A stretch of 34,971 nucleotides of DNA from Gemmatimonadota bacterium. GTDB lineage: Bacteria > Gemmatimonadota > Gemmatimonadetes > Longimicrobiales > Gaopeijiaceae. Below the pieces are notes generated by a model that saw only the letters and a program-made list of their open reading frames with translations, had not been told where the DNA came from and searched no databases. The translations under genes and the position numbers were made by a program. This document shows positions 1,561 to 8,995 of this stretch, in pieces. Location of the stretch: assembly GCA_009844885.1 (NCBI GenBank), contig VYAQ01000014.1:1-34971 (forward strand), in the 5' to 3' direction. Each line of letters starts with the position of its first letter. Within the stretch, counting starts at the first letter, position 1.

Positions 1561-2181
1561 TCAGGCTCCGCCGCAGGCCGAACTCTCCGGGTGCGCGGTC
1601 CAGCTCTCGAAGCTCTCGCCGTCCACCGCCAGCGTGACGGCCATGGACTGCCCCGCAGCGAGATCCTGGCGCTCCGTGGGTCCGAGTTCGGGGCCGCCGC
1701 CCAGGTGAACCTCCACGCGGACGGCACAGATGGTCGCGTCGGTCGCGTTGTGCACGGCTCCCGTGAAGGCATCGCGCGTGGCGTCGTACGAGAGCGTCAG
1801 CCGCATTCCCCGCCGGATGGCGTCCCAGTTCGCGTCGCGACCGATGTAGTCGCCTGATTCCTCACCCTCTTCGCCGTGCTCACCGCCTTCCGAATGCTCG
1901 CCGTCGGCGCGGCCCTCACCGTGTTCGCCGCCTTCGTCGTGCTCCCCTCCCTCTCGGTGCTCACCGCCCTCGCGCTCCTCGCGATGCTCTGCAGGCTCCG
2001 CCGCGTCAGCCTCCGTTTCCATCGTGTACCCTGCTTCCGCCGCCATCGCTCCCTCGGCAGCTTCGCCGTCGTCGACCGCGTCCGGCCGGGGTTGTTCCGC
2101 GCAGGCAATGACCGCAACCAGCCCAAACAGCAACGCGATGGATCCCATTGATGTGGTGGGTGTCCGTGTGACCCCTCTCAT
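1561..2181 (-). CDS. Lipoprotein with His/Glu/Gly-rich repeats and a C-terminal FxLYD-like domain
   Basis: A 206-aa predicted lipoprotein. I chose the ATG at 2181 because a strong ribosome binding site (AGGGGAGGT) lies just ahead of it; an upstream in-frame ATG at 2217 has none. The signal peptide ends in the lipobox VIAC (Cys27). An acidic low-complexity stretch follows. Residues 65-108 hold GGEH-type repeats with six His (66, 75, 81, 87, 96, 102) among many Glu and Gly. Residues about 110-200 form a compact beta-rich domain (GRDANWDAIRRGMRLTLSYD; VRVEVHL; ELGPTE; WTAHPE) resembling FxLYD-type domains of secreted proteins. Function is unknown; the His/Glu tract could bind metal, which is inference. 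It is the last minus-strand gene, 108 bases after lysJ. Confidence 0.75.
   Translation of the reverse strand: MRGVTRTPTTSMGSIALLFGLVAVIACAEQPRPDAVDDGEAAEGAMAAEAGYTMETEADAAEPAEHREEREGGEHREGGEHDEGGEHGEGRADGEHSEGGEHGEEGEESGDYIGRDANWDAIRRGMRLTLSYDATRDAFTGAVHNATDATICAVRVEVHLGGGPELGPTERQDLAAGQSMAVTLAVDGESFESWTAHPESSACGGA
1858..1989 (-). repeat. In-gene GGEH-coding repeat tract
   Basis: Degenerate short tandem repeats inside the lipoprotein gene encode (E/R/S)-GGEH-type units, giving six His in 37 residues. The units are imperfect (GGEHREGGEHDEGGEHGEG). Such a tract may change length by slippage. Confidence 0.7.
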
Positions 2182-2289
2182 GACTACCTCCCCTTTGCTC
2201 TGTTCCGCCATGTTCATCGGTAATCTGATCGGACCGGCGCGTCCGGGCCAGCGTGGCTCATGGCCACCGGCGGCCCCGGCCGTGTGTGC

Positions 2290-3486
2290 TCAGTTCAGCA
2301 CCCGCACCAGGGCGTCCACCACCTCGTCGACCTGCTCCTCGCTGATCACCAGCGGGGGCAGTATCCGTATCACCGTCGTGCCCGCCGGGAGCGCGAGCAC
2401 ACCCTGCTCCATGAGCGCCCTGAGATACGGGACGCAGCGCTCGCGCAATTCGACACCGATCATCAGGCCGACCTGGCGAAGCGCGCGCACGCGAGCGGGC
2501 AAGTGCCGCTCGAACCGGTTGCGAAAGCGGGCGCCGAGGCGTTCCGAACGTTCCGCCAGCCGCTCGTCCTCCATGAACCGGATGGTGGCCAGGGCGGCGG
2601 CGCACGCGAGCGGATTCCCGCCGAACGTCGTGCCATGCTTGCCGACAGGCGGGTTGACGTGGTCGGCAGCGAGAACCGCGCCGATCGGCACTCCGCCCCC
2701 CATCGCCTTGGCCAGGCACAGAATGTCCGGCGTCACGCCGTAGTGCTCGCACGCAAACATCCTGCCCGTGCGGCAGAACCCCGTCTGGATCTCGTCGAAG
2801 ATGAGGAGGGCGCCGGTATCGTCGCAGACCTCGCGCGCCGCCTGGAGGAACTCCGCGCTGGCGGGACGGATCCCACCCTCCCCCTGGACGGGCTCGATCA
2901 CCACCGCCGCCGTTTCCTCGCTTACGGCCGCGCGCAGCCTGTCCACGTTGTTGAACGGCACGAACGAGAATCCCGGGACGAGAGGCCTGAAGAGTTCCCG
3001 GTACTCCTTTTTGTGGGTCGCGCTGAGGGCCCCGAGCGTGCGGCCGTGAAACCCGCGCATGGTCGAGACGACGCCGACACGCCCCGTCACTATGCGTGCG
3101 AACTTGAACGCCGCTTCGATCGCCTCGGTTCCCGAGTTGCAAAGAAAGGCGCGCGCAAGGCCCCTGGGAGCCACCTCGGCCAGCTTCTCCAGCAGCTTCG
3201 CCCGCGCGTCATTGTAGAAGATCCCGGGACAGGTCACCAGCGTGCGCGCCTGCTCGGCAACCGCTCCGGCGACGGCGGAGTTGGCGTGCCCGACACTGGC
3301 CACTCCGATCCCCGCTACGCAGTCGATGTAGCGGCGGCCCCTGTCGTCCCACACCTCCGCCCCCTTCCCCCTTACCACCGTGATGTCACGCTTGGGGTAG
3401 ACCTCGAGCCCGTGGGCACGCTCGATCGCGCGGGCGTCCCGAGGCTCGGGAACGTCGCCGCGAGGCCGGTCCGCGTGCGCGTTCAC
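2290..3486 (-). CDS. lysJ: LysW-linked aminotransferase LysJ / acetylornithine aminotransferase family (ArgD)
   Basis: A class III PLP-dependent aminotransferase of 398 aa. It transaminates the semialdehyde carried on LysW to LysW-gamma-lysine (or LysW-ornithine), using glutamate as amino donor. Visible motifs: [13 protein letters not shown] (116-128) for phosphate and PLP binding, [14 protein letters not shown] (228-241) with the PLP-binding Asp, and the Schiff-base lysine K260 in [23 protein letters not shown] follows. The start is GTG at 3486, whose GTGA overlaps the lysZ stop, indicating translational coupling. The family alone cannot separate LysJ from ArgD; placement in the lysW-X-Y-Z cluster supports LysJ. 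Whether the product is lysine, ornithine or both is undecided. Confidence 0.88.
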
Positions 3487-4274
3487 GGGATCACCGTCCC
3501 GCTGCCCGCCAGCGCATCCGTCAGCGGACTCTCGCGGCGTCCGTCCGCCACCACGACCCGCGTCGACGCCTGTTCGGTGAGCCGCCTGAGGGCCAGCAGC
3601 TTGCGTTTCATGCGGCCTGTCACCCGCCTCTCCCTGTCGGCCAATTCGGCGCGGGTCATGCGGCGGATCAGGGACCCGGGGTCGTTCCGGTCCTCCAGGA
3701 TACCGGGCGCCTCGATCAGCTGCACCACCACATCCGCCTTCAGCACCATGTTCAACTCGGCGACGACATCGTCGTTCTCCGAATTGATCGCAAAGCCGTT
3801 TTCGTCGATGATCGGCACGGTCACAACCGGCGTGAAGCCGTTGTCCAGCAAGAGCCGGAGCAACTGCCGATTCACCGCGACGGGCTTGCCCGACAGGTCG
3901 CGCCTGATCAGGGTCTTCCCACCTTGTCGCACGCGGATGCCCTTGTTGCGCTTTCCGCGCACGAGTGCTCCGTCCAGGCCGGTGAACCCCACCGCGTTCA
4001 TCCCTTCTCTCTGCAACAGCTCTACCAGGCGCTTGTTGCGGAGCCCGGAGTAGGCCATGAGCATCACGTCCATGAGCCCTTCGTCCGTGTACACGCTGGT
4101 GTAGCCCGAGACGGACGTCAGAACCTGCTTTTCCACCCCCAGCCGTCGAGCCAGATCGTCACGCAGCGCGTTCGCCCCGTGTACGATGCAAACGGAGTCC
4201 TCGACGTGGGCAAGATCGCGCGCGATGCCCGCCAGGTTGATCGATTCACCGCCACCGATCTTCAGCAGCAACAC
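3483..4274 (-). CDS. lysZ: [LysW]-aminoadipate/glutamate kinase LysZ (ArgB family)
   Basis: An amino-acid kinase family protein of 263 aa. It phosphorylates the side-chain carboxylate of the aminoadipate (or glutamate) bound to LysW. The N-terminus MLLLKIGGGE is the ATP-phosphate-binding loop. IVHGANALRDDL matches the LysZ version of the ArgB His-Gly-Gly region. VPIIDENGFAINSENDDVVAELN and the C-terminal RMKRKLLAL stretch are typical of LysZ. The start is GTG at 4274 with GGAG about 9 bases upstream. It overlaps lysJ by 4 bases and follows the amidotransferase-like gene after 17 bases. Confidence 0.9.
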   Translation of the reverse strand: MLLLKIGGGESINLAGIARDLAHVEDSVCIVHGANALRDDLARRLGVEKQVLTSVSGYTSVYTDEGLMDVMLMAYSGLRNKRLVELLQREGMNAVGFTGLDGALVRGKRNKGIRVRQGGKTLIRRDLSGKPVAVNRQLLRLLLDNGFTPVVTVPIIDENGFAINSENDDVVAELNMVLKADVVVQLIEAPGILEDRNDPGSLIRRMTRAELADRERRVTGRMKRKLLALRRLTEQASTRVVVADGRRESPLTDALAGSGTVIP

Positions 4275-4291: not shown

Positions 4292-5023
4292 CTACTCGGA
4301 TCGTTCACCGTCGAAAGTCAGCACCTGACCCTTCGGCAAGGGAATCCAGGCCATGGTCGTGCCCGCGTGCGCTGCGGGCGTACGGGGCTCGGGCAACCCG
4401 CCGGACGACCCGGACGGGCCACGCCTGGCGGACTCGGGATACGGATCGGAACAGATAATCCGGACACAATCCGATTCCGTAGTGTGCATCTGAAAGTACT
4501 CGGGGTCCTCCCGGAAGTTCATCGCAACGTGAACCCGTGCCGACCGGTCGGCCACGATCAGGTTCATTGCACGGATGCGGCGGGTGCGCTTTTCGATCAC
4601 ACCGAGTCCCCTTTGGAGCGCCAAGCGGAAATCGCCTCGATCGAAGCGCTTGACGAAGTTGAACACTTTCTCGGCGCCGATCCGGCCCCGCTCCTTGATC
4701 CTCACCCCGTAGAGTTCGCCGTTGAAGACGAAGACGCGTTCTCCGTCGGTAAAGGGCATGTTGTTCTCCACGCGGATCCCCTCGTCGCGAAACGCGCTTC
4801 TCGCGTGGGCCACGAGCAGTTTCGCGCGACCCGGCGGCCTCCAGGGATCTTCCCAGATCGGCGTGATGTCGTGGTAGAGCTGCCACCCGCCATCTTCAAG
4901 CCATGCGCATCCCCAGCCGTGGCCCTGATACTCACGGCTTTCGCGTGCGATGACGGCGAACGCATCGAGGTGACCCGCCAGCTCGAAGTCGTCGCGGCCC
5001 TGGACGCACAGCAGGCGGCACAT
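4292..5023 (-). CDS. Class II glutamine amidotransferase-like Ntn hydrolase embedded in the lys cluster
   Basis: A 243-aa stand-alone class II glutaminase-fold protein, closest by eye to the YafJ type. The ATG at 5023 is chosen because removal of Met exposes Cys2, the N-terminal nucleophile of the family. It lies one base after the lysY stop. Visible elements: MCRLLCV at the start, GHGWG (34-38), VAHARSAF with Arg75 (the carboxylate-binding Arg of GlmS-type enzymes), ENNMPF (86-91), and Asn101-Gly102 in VFNGEL (oxyanion hole). Where YafJ has TDSEK, this protein has IGAEK (115-119), so the Asp that binds the glutamine alpha-amino group appears lost. The C-terminal 45 residues are Pro/Gly-rich and less conserved-looking. 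No synthetase or acceptor domain is attached. Its role is unknown; position suggests action on a LysW-bound intermediate. Confidence 0.85.
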   Translation of the reverse strand: MCRLLCVQGRDDFELAGHLDAFAVIARESREYQGHGWGCAWLEDGGWQLYHDITPIWEDPWRPPGRAKLLVAHARSAFRDEGIRVENNMPFTDGERVFVFNGELYGVRIKERGRIGAEKVFNFVKRFDRGDFRLALQRGLGVIEKRTRRIRAMNLIVADRSARVHVAMNFREDPEYFQMHTTESDCVRIICSDPYPESARRGPSGSSGGLPEPRTPAAHAGTTMAWIPLPKGQVLTFDGERSE

Positions 5024-5024
5024 G

Positions 5025-6047
5025 TCAGGCCGGGTGAAGGCCCGGAAACTCCAGACCGCGGGTCTCGGGAAGACCGTGCATGACGTTGAAGGCCTGCACC
5101 GCCTGCCCGGCCGCACCCTTCATGAGGTTGTCGATCGCGCTGAGCACCACGACGCGGTTGGCCGACGGGTCACGCTCGAAGCCGACATCGCAGTAGTTGG
5201 AGCCCGCGAGAAGGCTGGGATCCGGGTATCGGTGGATGCCGGAGCGTTCCTTGACGATGCGGACGAAGGGCTCGGCGGCGTAGGCCCTGCGATAGATTCG
5301 CCACAGCGCCTTGTCGTCGAGGTCGCGATTCACGAAGGCGTGACAGGTGGCGAGGACACCCCGCACCATTTCGACCGCGGTGGCCGAAAAGTGAATGTCG
5401 CCCCCAAGCGCCGCGCGGATCTCGGCAAGATGGCGATGCCCGGTGGGCTTGTAGGAACGCATGGCGCCGCTTCGCTCGGGATGATGGCTTCCGGGTGTCG
5501 CGCGGTTGCCGGCTTCGCTCGAGCCTACCTTGACCTCGACCACGACCGAGTCCGCCACCCCTTCCAGGTACAGCGGCCGCAGGCCGAGGATCGCGGCCGT
5601 GGCGTTGCACCCCGCGCACGCCACCAGGTCGGCCTCGGCGAGCGCGCCCCGGTTGAGCTCCGCGATCCCGTACACGAAGCGCCCCAGCAGGTCGGGACGC
5701 GGGTGCGGCCGTCCGTAGAACCGTTCGTACTCCGCGGCGTCACTCAGGCGGAAGTCGGCGCCGAGATCGACGACGCGCGGCGCGACGCGGCGGAAGTCGT
5801 CGATGCGACGGGCGGACTCGCCGTGTGGCAGACAGGAGAAGAGGACGTCGCACTCGTCCAGTTCGCCGAGAGTGCGGAAGCGCAGCCGCGTGGCGCCGCG
5901 CAGATTGGGGTGGGCGCGATGCGCGAACTTGCCCGCCAGCCGTTCCGACGTGATCTGCACGACATCGGCATCCGGGTGCGCCGTGAGCAGCCGCAACAGC
6001 TCACCGCCCGCGTAGCCGGAACCTCCCGCGATTGCGACGCGGATCAT
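5025..6047 (-). CDS. lysY: [LysW]-aminoadipyl/glutamyl phosphate reductase LysY (ArgC family)
   Basis: A 340-aa NADPH-dependent reductase that converts the LysW-bound acyl phosphate to the semialdehyde. The N-terminal Rossmann motif is [16 protein letters not shown] (6-21). The catalytic Cys147 sits in [11 protein letters not shown], the GCNAT form I associate with LysY rather than the GCYPT form of Arg[19 protein letters not shown] (about residues 174-191) is a family motif. [16 protein letters not shown] near the C-terminus is the usual ArgC/LysY NADP-binding segment. The ATG at 6047 shares ATGA with the lysX stop, so the longer upstream open frame is not real coding. The next gene begins one base after its stop. 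Confidence 0.92.
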
Positions 6048-6883
6048 GGGCGGGCCGCCCGCGCAACGTAGGACACGACACGCTCCGGGATGTTCACCCC
6101 GGTAACGTCGATGCTGTTGCGGAACTCCATCGTGTAGTTGACCTCGTTGACAAGGAGGCCGTCCGCGGTCTCGAAGAGGTCGACCGCGAGAACCCCGCCG
6201 CCGACCGCGTCCGCTGCGCGCAGCGCGATCTCGGCAAGCGGGACGGTCACCGGACAGTTGGTGGCACGACCTCCCCGCGCGGTGTTGGTGATCCAGTGCT
6301 CGGACGACCGGTAGATCGCCGCGACGCACTCGTCTCCGACCACGAATGCGCGGATGTCGCGACCGCCCTTCTCGACGTATTGCTGGACGAAGAAGATCGA
6401 ATGGTGGTAGCTGCCCAGGATGGACTTGTGCTCGAGTACGGTCTCCGCCGCATCCCGGTCGTTGATCTTCGACAGCAGACGGCCCCACGATCCGACCGCT
6501 GGCTTGAGCACGGCCGGGTAGCCCAGTTCCTCGATCGCCAGCAACGCCGATTCCGGTGTAAAGGCGACGCGCACTTCCGGCTGTGGCACCCCGCATTCCT
6601 GCAGCGACGCGGCGGTGAGGATCTTGTCCCCGCACCGGCGCGCGACTTCATAGGTATTGACGCACGGTGTGCCCGCACCCTCGAAGAGCCGCAATGCGTG
6701 CATGGCGCGCGAGTGGTTGATCGATCGTTCCAGCACGATGTCGACCTCGGGGGCGCACCCAAGGTCCAAGACCAGTTTGCGGTCGTCCAGGAAGACCAGT
6801 TCCATGTCGTCCCGCTTGCGGACTTCCGCGATCAGGAGCTTCTCGTCCTTCCGGATAAGGGAGTGAAGGAATCCGACCTTCAT
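6044..6883 (-). CDS. lysX: LysW ligase LysX (ATP-grasp; aminoadipate or glutamate to LysW)
   Basis: A 279-aa ATP-grasp ligase of the LysX/ArgX/RimK group. It joins the alpha-amino group of aminoadipate (or glutamate) to the gamma-carboxylate of the C-terminal Glu of LysW. Visible: [20 protein letters not shown] (52-71), [14 protein letters not shown] (122-135) for ATP binding, the NTARGG loop (200-205), and [13 protein letters not shown] (245-257) with the Mg-binding Glu247 and Asn249. The start at 6883 shares ATGA with the lysW stop. I cannot tell from the visible residues whether it selects aminoadipate (lysine) or glutamate (arginine). Confidence 0.92.
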
Positions 6884-7044
6884 TCACCCCAATCCTCTTC
6901 CGCCTCGGGGGCCTCTCCGAGCGTGAGAGGACCCAGCGTCAGGATTTCGAGCTCGACGCCGCACTCCTCGCACTCGAGCAACTCTCCTTCCACGGGATCG
7001 GGAGAGATCTCGACCTCTCCGGCACACACGGGACACTCTGACAT
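6880..7044 (-). CDS. lysW: Amino-group carrier protein LysW
   Basis: A 54-codon gene read by hand-translating the minus strand. It starts MSECPVC and ends EEDWGE; EDWGE is the canonical LysW C-terminus whose last Glu carries the biosynthetic intermediates. Two Cys pairs (Cys4/Cys7 and Cys25/Cys28) form the zinc knuckle. The rest is strongly acidic, as expected for a carrier docking onto basic surfaces of LysX, Y, Z and J. GAGGAG lies about 10 bases before the ATG. Its stop overlaps the lysX start in ATGA. This makes the downstream enzymes a LysW-dependent pathway rather than the acetylated ArgBCD route. Confidence 0.95.
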
Positions 7045-7087: not shown

Positions 7088-8995
7088 CTACTTCTCCGCC
7101 AGCGACGACGTCGGAATCTCCCTGGCCTCCACCCTTCGCCCCTCTCGCAGCGTCACGTACGCCTCCATGGCCCGATAGGCCGGCAGACCAAGCGACTGGA
7201 GCAGGTCCGCCGTCCCCCGGTTGCGGTCGACCACGCGCTGCCAGAACTCGCGGTCGTCCGGACCGGGAAAGGGAGCCGAGTCCTTCTGCGACTCGTGCCG
7301 GAAGATCGCCTGCACCTTGGCTCGCATCTCGCCGTCCGAAAGCGGTACCAGCACGGTGGCCTCGTTCACGCTCCATTCCTGCCACGCGCCGCGATAGAGC
7401 CAGAGCCAGGGCGGGTCGCCACCATAGCGTCCGAGAGCCCTTTCGACCGCATCCAGGCACATGCGGTGCGTACCGTGCGGGTCGGACAGGTCGCCCGCGG
7501 CGAAAACCATGGTCGGACGCACGTCCTCGAGCAGGTCGACGACAATTCCCACATCTGCCTCCGAGATCGGGTTCTTCCTGACCTCTCCCGTCTGGTAGAA
7601 CGGCATGTTGAGGAAGCGCGCGTGATCGGCCGAGAGGCCCAGCTCCGCGATGCCCGCCGACGCCTCGCTCTCGCGGATGATCCGCTTCAGGTCCTGCACG
7701 ACCGGGGTATCGACATCCCCCGGCTCCTTCTCCGCCAGATCCTGCTCGACGGATCTCAAGACCGTTTCCAGGGCTTCCCGCTCTCCGAGATCGATGACCC
7801 TGGCCGTCCTGCGCATGAAGTCGAGATAGCGACGCACCTCGTGGTCGAAGACCGCGATGTTCCCCGATGTCTGGTACGCTACGGTAACGTCGTTCCCGTT
7901 CTCGGTGAGCTTCCGCAGCAACCCGCCCATCGAAATAACGTCGTCGTCGGGGTGTGGTGAGAACACCAGCATCTTCTGGCCGCGAGGCAGCCGGCTCTTG
8001 CCGCGGATCTTGGAAATCAGGGCATTGAACACCTCTCCGTTCAGCGGCTCGGCCGACCCGTATCGCGACACCAGGGACCCGAGGCGGTGTTCCCGATAGT
8101 CATCCGTGGCGAGGTGCAGGATCGGCTTGCCGGTGCGCAGGCTGAGCCAGATTACGGCCTCTGTCTCCCAGTGGGGTGTCCACTCAACATCCCCTACCAG
8201 CCACGGGGTGCGGATCCGTGTGAGATCCGCCGCCGCCGCGGGGTCCAGATAGACCGTCGCCGCAGGGTGCTGCTGCAGGAAGGTGGCGGCCACATCGGCA
8301 TGAACCTCGCCCTCGACGGCACGGCGCACGATCGCGGCCTTGTGCTCGCCGGTGGCCAGCAGGACCACTTCGCGGGCCTCCAGGATCGTCGCGACGCCCA
8401 TGGTGATCGCCTGAGGCGGCACGTTCTCCTCGCCGAAAAAATCGGACGCTGCATCGGTCCTGGTTACCGTGTCGAGGTAGAGTTGCCGGGTGCGTGAACG
8501 GCGAGCCGACCCGGGCTCGTTGAATCCGATGTGTCCGGTACGTCCGATCCCGAGGATCTGCAGGTCGATGCCTCCGACAGCCCGAATGCGGTGTTCGAAG
8601 TCCCGACAGTGCGACTCCACCTCGGTCCCGGCCAGGTCGCCACGCGGTATATGACAGCAATCGGGCCGGATGTTGACGTGTTCGAAGAGATTCTCCCGCA
8701 TGTAGCGATGGTAGCTGTGGATGCTCCCGGGCTGCATCGGGTAGTACTCGTCGAGGTTGAAGGTGACGACGTTGGCGAAGTCCAGTCCCTCTTCGCGGTG
8801 CAGCCGGATCAGCTCGCGGTAGACCCCGACGGGCGTCGAGCCGGTCGCAAGACCCAGTACCGCGTCCCGGCCCTCGGCAGCGCGTTGCCGGATGAGCGTC
8901 GCGATTCGCCCGGCCACCTCGGCCGCGATAGCGTCATGGTCCTTAATGACGCGAACGGGGATGTGCTCCCGCCGCGCCGCGTTGGTCCCGTTCAC
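7088..8995 (-). CDS. nagB: Glucosamine-6-phosphate deaminase fused to a PIG-L/LmbE-type deacetylase
   Basis: A 635-aa two-domain protein. Residues about 1-270 are NagB-like: LATGSTPVG (49-57), FNLDEYYP (79-86) and GIGRTGHIGFNEPGS (149-163), including the Asp, His and Glu positions of the isomerase/deaminase centre. It would convert glucosamine 6-phosphate to fructose 6-phosphate and ammonia. Residues about 340-600 are a PIG-L-like zinc deacetylase: SPHPDDD (346-352) and DPHGTH (505-510) supply the metal ligands. The combined protein could deacetylate an N-acetyl-glucosamine derivative and then deaminate it, which is inference. I recall similar fusions annotated nagB in Bacteroidetes and Planctomycetes. 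It lies 43 bases before lysW in the same direction. Confidence 0.88.
   Translation of the reverse strand: MNGTNAARREHIPVRVIKDHDAIAAEVAGRIATLIRQRAAEGRDAVLGLATGSTPVGVYRELIRLHREEGLDFANVVTFNLDEYYPMQPGSIHSYHRYMRENLFEHVNIRPDCCHIPRGDLAGTEVESHCRDFEHRIRAVGGIDLQILGIGRTGHIGFNEPGSARRSRTRQLYLDTVTRTDAASDFFGEENVPPQAITMGVATILEAREVVLLATGEHKAAIVRRAVEGEVHADVAATFLQQHPAATVYLDPAAAADLTRIRTPWLVGDVEWTPHWETEAVIWLSLRTGKPILHLATDDYREHRLGSLVSRYGSAEPLNGEVFNALISKIRGKSRLPRGQKMLVFSPHPDDDVISMGGLLRKLTENGNDVTVAYQTSGNIAVFDHEVRRYLDFMRRTARVIDLGEREALETVLRSVEQDLAEKEPGDVDTPVVQDLKRIIRESEASAGIAELGLSADHARFLNMPFYQTGEVRKNPISEADVGIVVDLLEDVRPTMVFAAGDLSDPHGTHRMCLDAVERALGRYGGDPPWLWLYRGAWQEWSVNEATVLVPLSDGEMRAKVQAIFRHESQKDSAPFPGPDDREFWQRVVDRNRGTADLLQSLGLPAYRAMEAYVTLREGRRVEAREIPTSSLAEK

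Follow-up and report, generated by a model that had tools for sequence, protein, structure and literature searches.

The LysW carrier-protein route to lysine and ornithine had seemed to require LysK, a hydrolase of the LysK/ArgE type within the M20 enzymes, which are metallopeptidases. Here we describe a stand-alone class II amidotransferase-fold hydrolase of the N-terminal nucleophile (Ntn) type, referred to as GAT, which is encoded among lys genes in a stretch of 34,971 nucleotides from a Gemmatimonadota bacterium (contig VYAQ01000014.1; "the window" denotes the whole of this stretch). Many bacteria with a LysW pathway, and at least one archaeon, seem to free the product with this glutaminase-like enzyme instead of LysK. 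The two enzymes take the same place in the pathway, as seen in the phylum by clusters of the form lysWXYZJK (two) or lysWXY-GAT-ZJ, but they are unrelated in fold and chemistry, GAT being a cysteine Ntn hydrolase.

The fold nearest to the predicted structure of GAT is that of EgtC, the amidohydrolase of ergothioneine biosynthesis (PDB 4zfj, 4zfk and 4zfl), which cleaves a gamma-glutamyl amide. The substrate of EgtC presents a Glu with a free alpha-amine, whereas in the substrate proposed for GAT this nitrogen sits in the LysW chain and the enzyme is without the corresponding Asp; identity between the two is 15-19%, and with 26.7 bits against the EgtC equivalog TIGR03442 (cut-off 218.65) GAT is not a member of that family. 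The stand-alone amidotransferases of the YafJ/GATase_4/GATase_6 type give a weak profile match to the N-terminal half of GAT, below the Pfam cut-offs (GATase_4, 18.1 against 23 bits; GATase_6, 19.2 against 27). A third comparison, by description and not by sequence, is with Dug3 of the yeast Dug2-Dug3 complex, which the passages concerned describe as of class II amidotransferase type, the complex cleaving a gamma-glutamyl amide (PMC6508711); Dug3 differs in needing its partner Dug2 and in acting on glutathione.

No paper joining LysW with a glutamine amidotransferase, nor LysW and LysK with an amidotransferase, was found in the open-access literature. For Caldithrix abyssi, the relevant part of the genome paper assigns LysWXZYJ and Hcs to a locus of eight tags and holds that non-orthologous gene displacement may play a part in the lysine pathway, or that the pathway may be incomplete (PMC5317091). 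The lysine gap is unmentioned in the passages on GapMind (PMC7311316), and the sections of a Gemmatimonadota paper that mention the LysW-glutamate pathway do so without the GAT gene (PMC11651109).

Distribution of GAT and LysK

The genes in the window run lysW-lysX-lysY-GAT-lysZ-lysJ on the minus strand (Table 1). The preliminary description of this DNA had placed a stand-alone glutaminase-fold open reading frame between lysY and lysZ, and the coordinates bear this out, with gaps of 1 and 17 bases, respectively. GAT is a real gene, because it is under purifying constraint (dN/dS, nonsynonymous over synonymous divergence, of 0.069/0.315 when compared with an 89% relative and of 0.25/1.46 with a 64% relative) and has 239 relatives in GTDB genomes. 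No lysK lies around the operon within the window. The same description had suggested GAT as a candidate stand-in for LysK, and a LysK elsewhere in the genome was rejected, as none of its 16 M20 matches exceeds the LysK cut-off (the best gives 60.9 bits against 163.1).

A phylum sample of 200 genomes was searched for GAT, LysW and LysK (genomes are given below as G numbers, loci as L numbers). GAT matches at E 0.001 occurred in 37 genomes, of which 28 hold true members, set at E below 1e-40; six of the nine weak matches, once retrieved, proved to be canonical amidotransferases carrying the motif TD[ST]E, the others being in G101, G156 and G196. LysW exceeded its cut-off in 35 genomes, namely the 28 with GAT, G013, G199 and five that were set aside: around G097 and G178 there is no lysX, lysY, lysZ or lysJ match beyond chance in about 18 kb, and the matches in G055, G079 and G080 lie inside frames of 452-662 aa. 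LysK was over cut-off only in G013 (330 bits) and G199 (303.5 bits), both of which carry lysW-X-Y-Z-J-K in one cluster without GAT. The 30 pathway genomes thus comprise 28 with GAT and no LysK over cut-off and two with LysK and no GAT; none has both and none has neither. The GAT gene lies between lysY and lysZ in 26 of the 28, at a contig end beside lysZ in one (L042) and off the operon in G161 (L034). In three genomes of the window's own genus (G139, G193 and G198) neither GAT nor LysW was found.

The association extends well beyond the phylum. Among the best 80 of the 239 GTDB relatives, with taxa named by record titles, 79 loci have at least one of lysX, lysY, lysZ and lysJ on the same strand, and 71 have lysY before and lysZ after GAT; a chance association was rejected on the strength of these 79 loci from several phyla. 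No match to two LysK queries was found within any of the 80. Flanks are exceptional at L141 (same genome as G161) and at the two KSB1 loci L144 and L177, the latter two having only lysZ and lysJ beside GAT, and one flank is missing at L129, L134, L135, L138, L148 and L161. Three of the records with GAT (L161, L165 and L172) are labelled Calditrichota. The gammaproteobacterial-type loci L134, L135 and L138 read lysWXY-GAT, with a LysW ending in Gln and neither lysZ nor lysJ matched in the flank covered. L129, of the same type, has only lysY-GAT: its 8 kb of upstream DNA gave no match to lysW or lysX, and the flank covered gave none to lysZ or lysJ.

A second sample, comprising 217 genomes and drawn from the class of a Melioribacter metagenome-assembled genome, gave strong GAT matches in 20 genomes, plus one weak canonical relative in G396. 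The same 20 genomes have a strong LysW match whose 3.1-kb locus includes lysX, and LysK was over cut-off in none of the 217. The LysW-like match in G405 was rejected as a pathway, there being no lysX in its 3.1-kb locus, and the over-cut-off LysW matches in G338, G403 and G419 were left out; with G055, G079 and G080 they lie inside frames of 317-662 aa. The gene order in Melioribacter is lysW, a homocitrate synthase-like gene (343 bits, below the model's cut-off), lysX, lysY, GAT, lysZ and lysJ. Across the sets of 200, 217 and 12 genomes GAT and LysK were never found together over cut-off, and the survey of related genomes that had been proposed shows GAT to track lysW and exclude lysK (28 against 2, and 20 against 0). 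GAT is thus encoded with lysWXYZJ where LysK is absent, as expected on genomic grounds of the release step.

Two findings limit the case for GAT as the replacement for LysK. M20 proteins below the LysK cut-off are common (197/200, 11/12 and 173/217 genomes), and the mutual exclusion in the phylum sample rests on one clade with two LysK genomes. The LysK-type operons of G013, G199 and Deinococcus cluster in the tree (support 83), adjacent to the GAT types, and G165 is basal; a separate, midpoint-rooted tree placed G165 with the LysK-type operons (0.977). As these operons form one group, the exchange of GAT and LysK happened at least once, and no higher count can be given.

Active site and proposed reaction

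GAT belongs to the class II (Ntn) amidotransferase superfamily, having both the Cys2 nucleophile and the Ntn fold; its profile (15 rows) found 3mdn at 37 bits and EgtC at 28 bits in the PDB, and no M20 family was among the Pfam or NCBIfam matches of the protein. The retention of Cys2, Arg75 and Asn101-Gly102 noted at the outset holds throughout, these residues being invariant across 45 aligned sequences. The by-eye alignment that put IGAEK in place of TDSEK, with loss of the Asp, also proved correct and family-wide: TD[ST]E is present in all seven canonical class II relatives aligned (six from the phylum sample and one from the class sample), IGAEK in all ten GAT members aligned with them, and GRIG[AG]E in 80/80 GAT sequences, with Gly at the canonical Asp position. 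In ordinary class II amidotransferases this Asp binds the alpha-amine of free glutamine, and we assume for Arg75 and Asn101-Gly102 the roles usual in such enzymes. On its sequence, GAT lacks the alpha-amine-binding residue that marks a glutamine-hydrolysing class II amidotransferase.

From these features we infer a reaction in which Cys2 would attack the gamma-amide between the C-terminal Glu of LysW and the alpha-amine of lysine or ornithine, Arg75 would grip the free alpha-carboxylate of this Glu and Asn101-Gly102 would form the oxyanion hole. Lysine or ornithine would depart free, and water would resolve the LysW-gamma-thioester to LysW-Glu. The Asp would be missing because the nitrogen in question lies in the peptide chain of LysW. 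The comparative evidence, in which GAT occurs with lysW, without lysK over cut-off and with the Asp lost, supports the earlier suggestion, and we put at roughly 0.8 the probability that GAT carries out the last hydrolysis of the LysW pathway, standing in for LysK although its fold is unrelated.

The archaeon GW2011_AR15

The clearest case is the archaeon GW2011_AR15 (AR15), whose lys genes form a run of lysW, a homocitrate synthase-type gene, the large and small subunits of an aconitase-family enzyme, a dehydrogenase of the isopropylmalate/homoisocitrate type, lysX, lysY, GAT, lysZ and lysJ, which reads as the aminoadipate route with all steps except LysK. The homocitrate synthase-type gene scores 427 bits (cut-off 413.55). 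Because it also passes the isopropylmalate synthase subfamily model (528.6 against 517), and no second chromosomal copy of the four genes upstream of lysX was found, these four may serve leucine in addition or instead. DapB was not found in AR15; ArgG was, and the frame directly after it reads, by eye, as argininosuccinate lyase.

The LysK model returned no candidates in AR15. A further scan covered 60 pieces (1,187,190 bases including overlaps, 2,673 of them N), in which none of 15 M20 queries found a match and a hidden Markov model (HMM) of these gave E 3.3 at best, whilst the GAT HMM detected GAT at 348.9 bits. Whatever its product, the LysW pathway of AR15 thus has GAT and no M20 was found; as this absence is independent of the product, the caution over leucine leaves the odds for GAT as the release enzyme unchanged.

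The C-terminal residue of LysW and alternative roles for GAT

LysW ends in EDWGQ in 21 loci, which represent 18 distinct records and use both CAA and CAG codons: four from Gemmatimonadota (family f4), eight gammaproteobacterial, one each from Melioribacteraceae and Calditrichia, and four from the Melioribacter class. All are from GAT genomes, and lysX adjoins LysW; in the f4 genomes with LysK (G013 and G199) LysW ends in Glu. A combined LysX and LysY tree with 71 tips, of which 13 are Gln and 58 Glu, requires six or more changes of the trait, against a mean of 12.2 when shuffled. LysX requires a gamma-carboxylate, so that a LysW ending in Gln must first be deamidated; what would render carriers of this kind tolerable is an enzyme that hydrolyses the gamma-amide at the LysW C-terminus. 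The active site that we propose for release could first deamidate LysW-Gln to Glu. We regard the chances as about even that GAT is bifunctional in this way, activating an inert LysW-Gln and later freeing lysine or ornithine from LysW-gamma-Glu.

Could maturation be the only role of GAT, with an unrecognised hydrolase such as an M20 paralog releasing the product? The 18 records ending in Gln and the suitability of a glutaminase fold for deamidation speak for this, but Glu is the last residue in 58 of the 71 LysW loci compared, 56 of these lying in GAT genomes, where no deamidation is needed and GAT is nevertheless kept. As most GAT operons have LysW-Glu, deamidation is not the core function, whereas release can be. 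AR15 (L166), with EDWGE and GAT and no M20 found, is a further case, and the absence of LysK would be left unexplained; we thus consider maturation alone unlikely. A role for GAT in editing, protecting or regulating the LysW pathway, by unloading mischarged LysW for example, with release by a divergent M20 enzyme outside the operon, is very unlikely: the sub-cut-off M20 proteins of most genomes searched would allow it, but it sits poorly with the presence of GAT and the lack of LysK over cut-off across the samples, with the lack of any M20 found in AR15 and with the lack of one resembling the two LysK queries in the 80 loci. An ordinary glutaminase subunit supplying ammonia to LysX-like chemistry, as had also been suggested, or to nitrogen metabolism would have the class II amidotransferase fold and nucleophile, but this is extremely improbable and was rejected, since the glutamine-binding Asp is Gly in 80/80, no synthase domain was seen in the Pfam scan of the protein, LysX and LysJ to our knowledge need no ammonia, and free ammonia is not known to enter any of the reactions by which aminoadipate or glutamate is turned into lysine or ornithine on LysW.

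The LysW branch in Gemmatimonadota, Gammaproteobacteria, Ignavibacteria, Calditrichota and elsewhere has no LysK over cut-off in the genomes searched, and pathway tools may therefore call these organisms incomplete or auxotrophic. If GAT is the release enzyme, one gene would fill such gaps in the LysW pathway, and a glutaminase fold could be redirected towards a protein C-terminus, in place of free glutamine, by losing a single residue that binds the substrate; LysW variants ending in Gln are also predicted to undergo a maturation step. If it is bifunctional, it would provide a new activation step for the amino-group carrier as well as a complete non-homologous replacement of LysK in several phyla, for both lysine and arginine.

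Lysine or ornithine as product

ArgB was not found over cut-off in the window's genus (13 genomes) or in family f7 (8 genomes), and lysZ is the sole argB-type match in the window's own genome. Every one of the 33 genomes tested for ArgG gave a match, over cut-off in 32; DapB occurs in the window's own genome and in 18 of the 21 genomes of the genus and f7. With no other acetylglutamate-type kinase over cut-off and with ArgG and DapB present, ornithine is the likelier product in the organism, its genus and f7. Conversely, G109, G121, G133 and, from the Melioribacter class, G209 and G210 have ArgB without DapB and are of the lysine type; G041 has both, and G053, G064, G174, G070, G161 and G165 have neither over cut-off. 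The product in Ignavibacteria is probably lysine, and that of AR15 lysine, ornithine or both. As GAT genomes include both ornithine- and lysine-type gene sets, GAT tracks LysW and not one particular product; single enzyme sets are likewise not tied to one product in bifunctional archaeal pathways, in the passages that treat these (PMC10433800).

The specificity motifs of LysX (NYTME, NHTME or NHTLE, none in some loci) were rejected as a guide, lysine and ornithine not being separable by them; the products above are assigned from ArgB, DapB and ArgG. One GAT operon (L153, 5260-6938) has a tandem pair of LysX-like ligases; perhaps they differ in substrate, aminoadipate or glutamate, and share the carrier and the release enzyme.

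The operon in the window and other gene clusters

The lysX, lysY and lysZ of the window exceed their NCBIfam cut-offs. LysW just exceeds TIGR01206 (53.3 against 53.2 bits) and clearly the Pfam model Zn_ribbon_LysW (54.1 against 27), whilst lysJ passes the argD subfamily model, its best match, LysJ_Th_th, being below its own cut-off.

Table 1. Genes of the lys operon in the window and proposed active-site elements of GAT
Feature	Position	Strand	Remarks
lysW, carrier protein	6880..7044	-	54 aa, end EDWGE; Glu54 codon 6883-6885
lysX, ATP-grasp ligase loading LysW	6044..6883	-	
lysY, argC family reductase	5025..6047	-	
GAT, stand-alone class II amidotransferase-fold (Ntn) hydrolase, proposed LysW gamma-amide hydrolase	4292..5023	-	243 aa, ATG start
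lysZ, LysW-aminoadipate/glutamate kinase	3483..4274	-	
lysJ, argD-family aminotransferase	2290..3486	-	
Cys2 codon, N-terminal nucleophile after Met removal	5018..5020	-	invariant 45/45 and 80/80; role by homology
Arg75 codon (HARSA motif), proposed alpha-carboxylate anchor	4799..4801	-	invariant; role by homology
Asn101-Gly102 codons (FNGEL), proposed oxyanion hole	4718..4723	-	invariant; role by homology
GRIGAEK, in place of canonical xxTD[ST]E; Asp to Gly116	4667..4687	-	alignments

By eye, the minus-strand frame just upstream of lysW (7088-8995) is a fusion of glucosamine-6-phosphate deaminase and a LmbE/PIG-L-type deacetylase, and that downstream of lysJ (1561-2217, minus strand) encodes a short protein with His/Glu/Gly-rich repeats and a lipoprotein-like start. 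Elsewhere, LysZ and LysJ seemingly form one fused frame of 699 aa directly after GAT (L089, 880-2979, genome G165), and a threonine synthase-like gene, by eye, directly follows lysJ in genome G109 (L085, 6370-7692, minus strand).

Plasmids gave no GAT match. They hold eight LysW records (two of them identical), all ending in Glu and in non-GAT clusters; an annotated M20-type gene is nearby in five, the unannotated L254 has an M20 by tblastn, and no M20 was found in the stretch read for L252 and L253. The cluster on a Staphylococcus epidermidis plasmid (L248, NZ_CP043848.1), comprising lysW, a RimK-type ligase, an aminotransferase, argC and an M20 gene, resembles that on a Pseudalkalibacillus plasmid (L251) and has the look of natural-product chemistry on a carrier, with release by an M20 enzyme.
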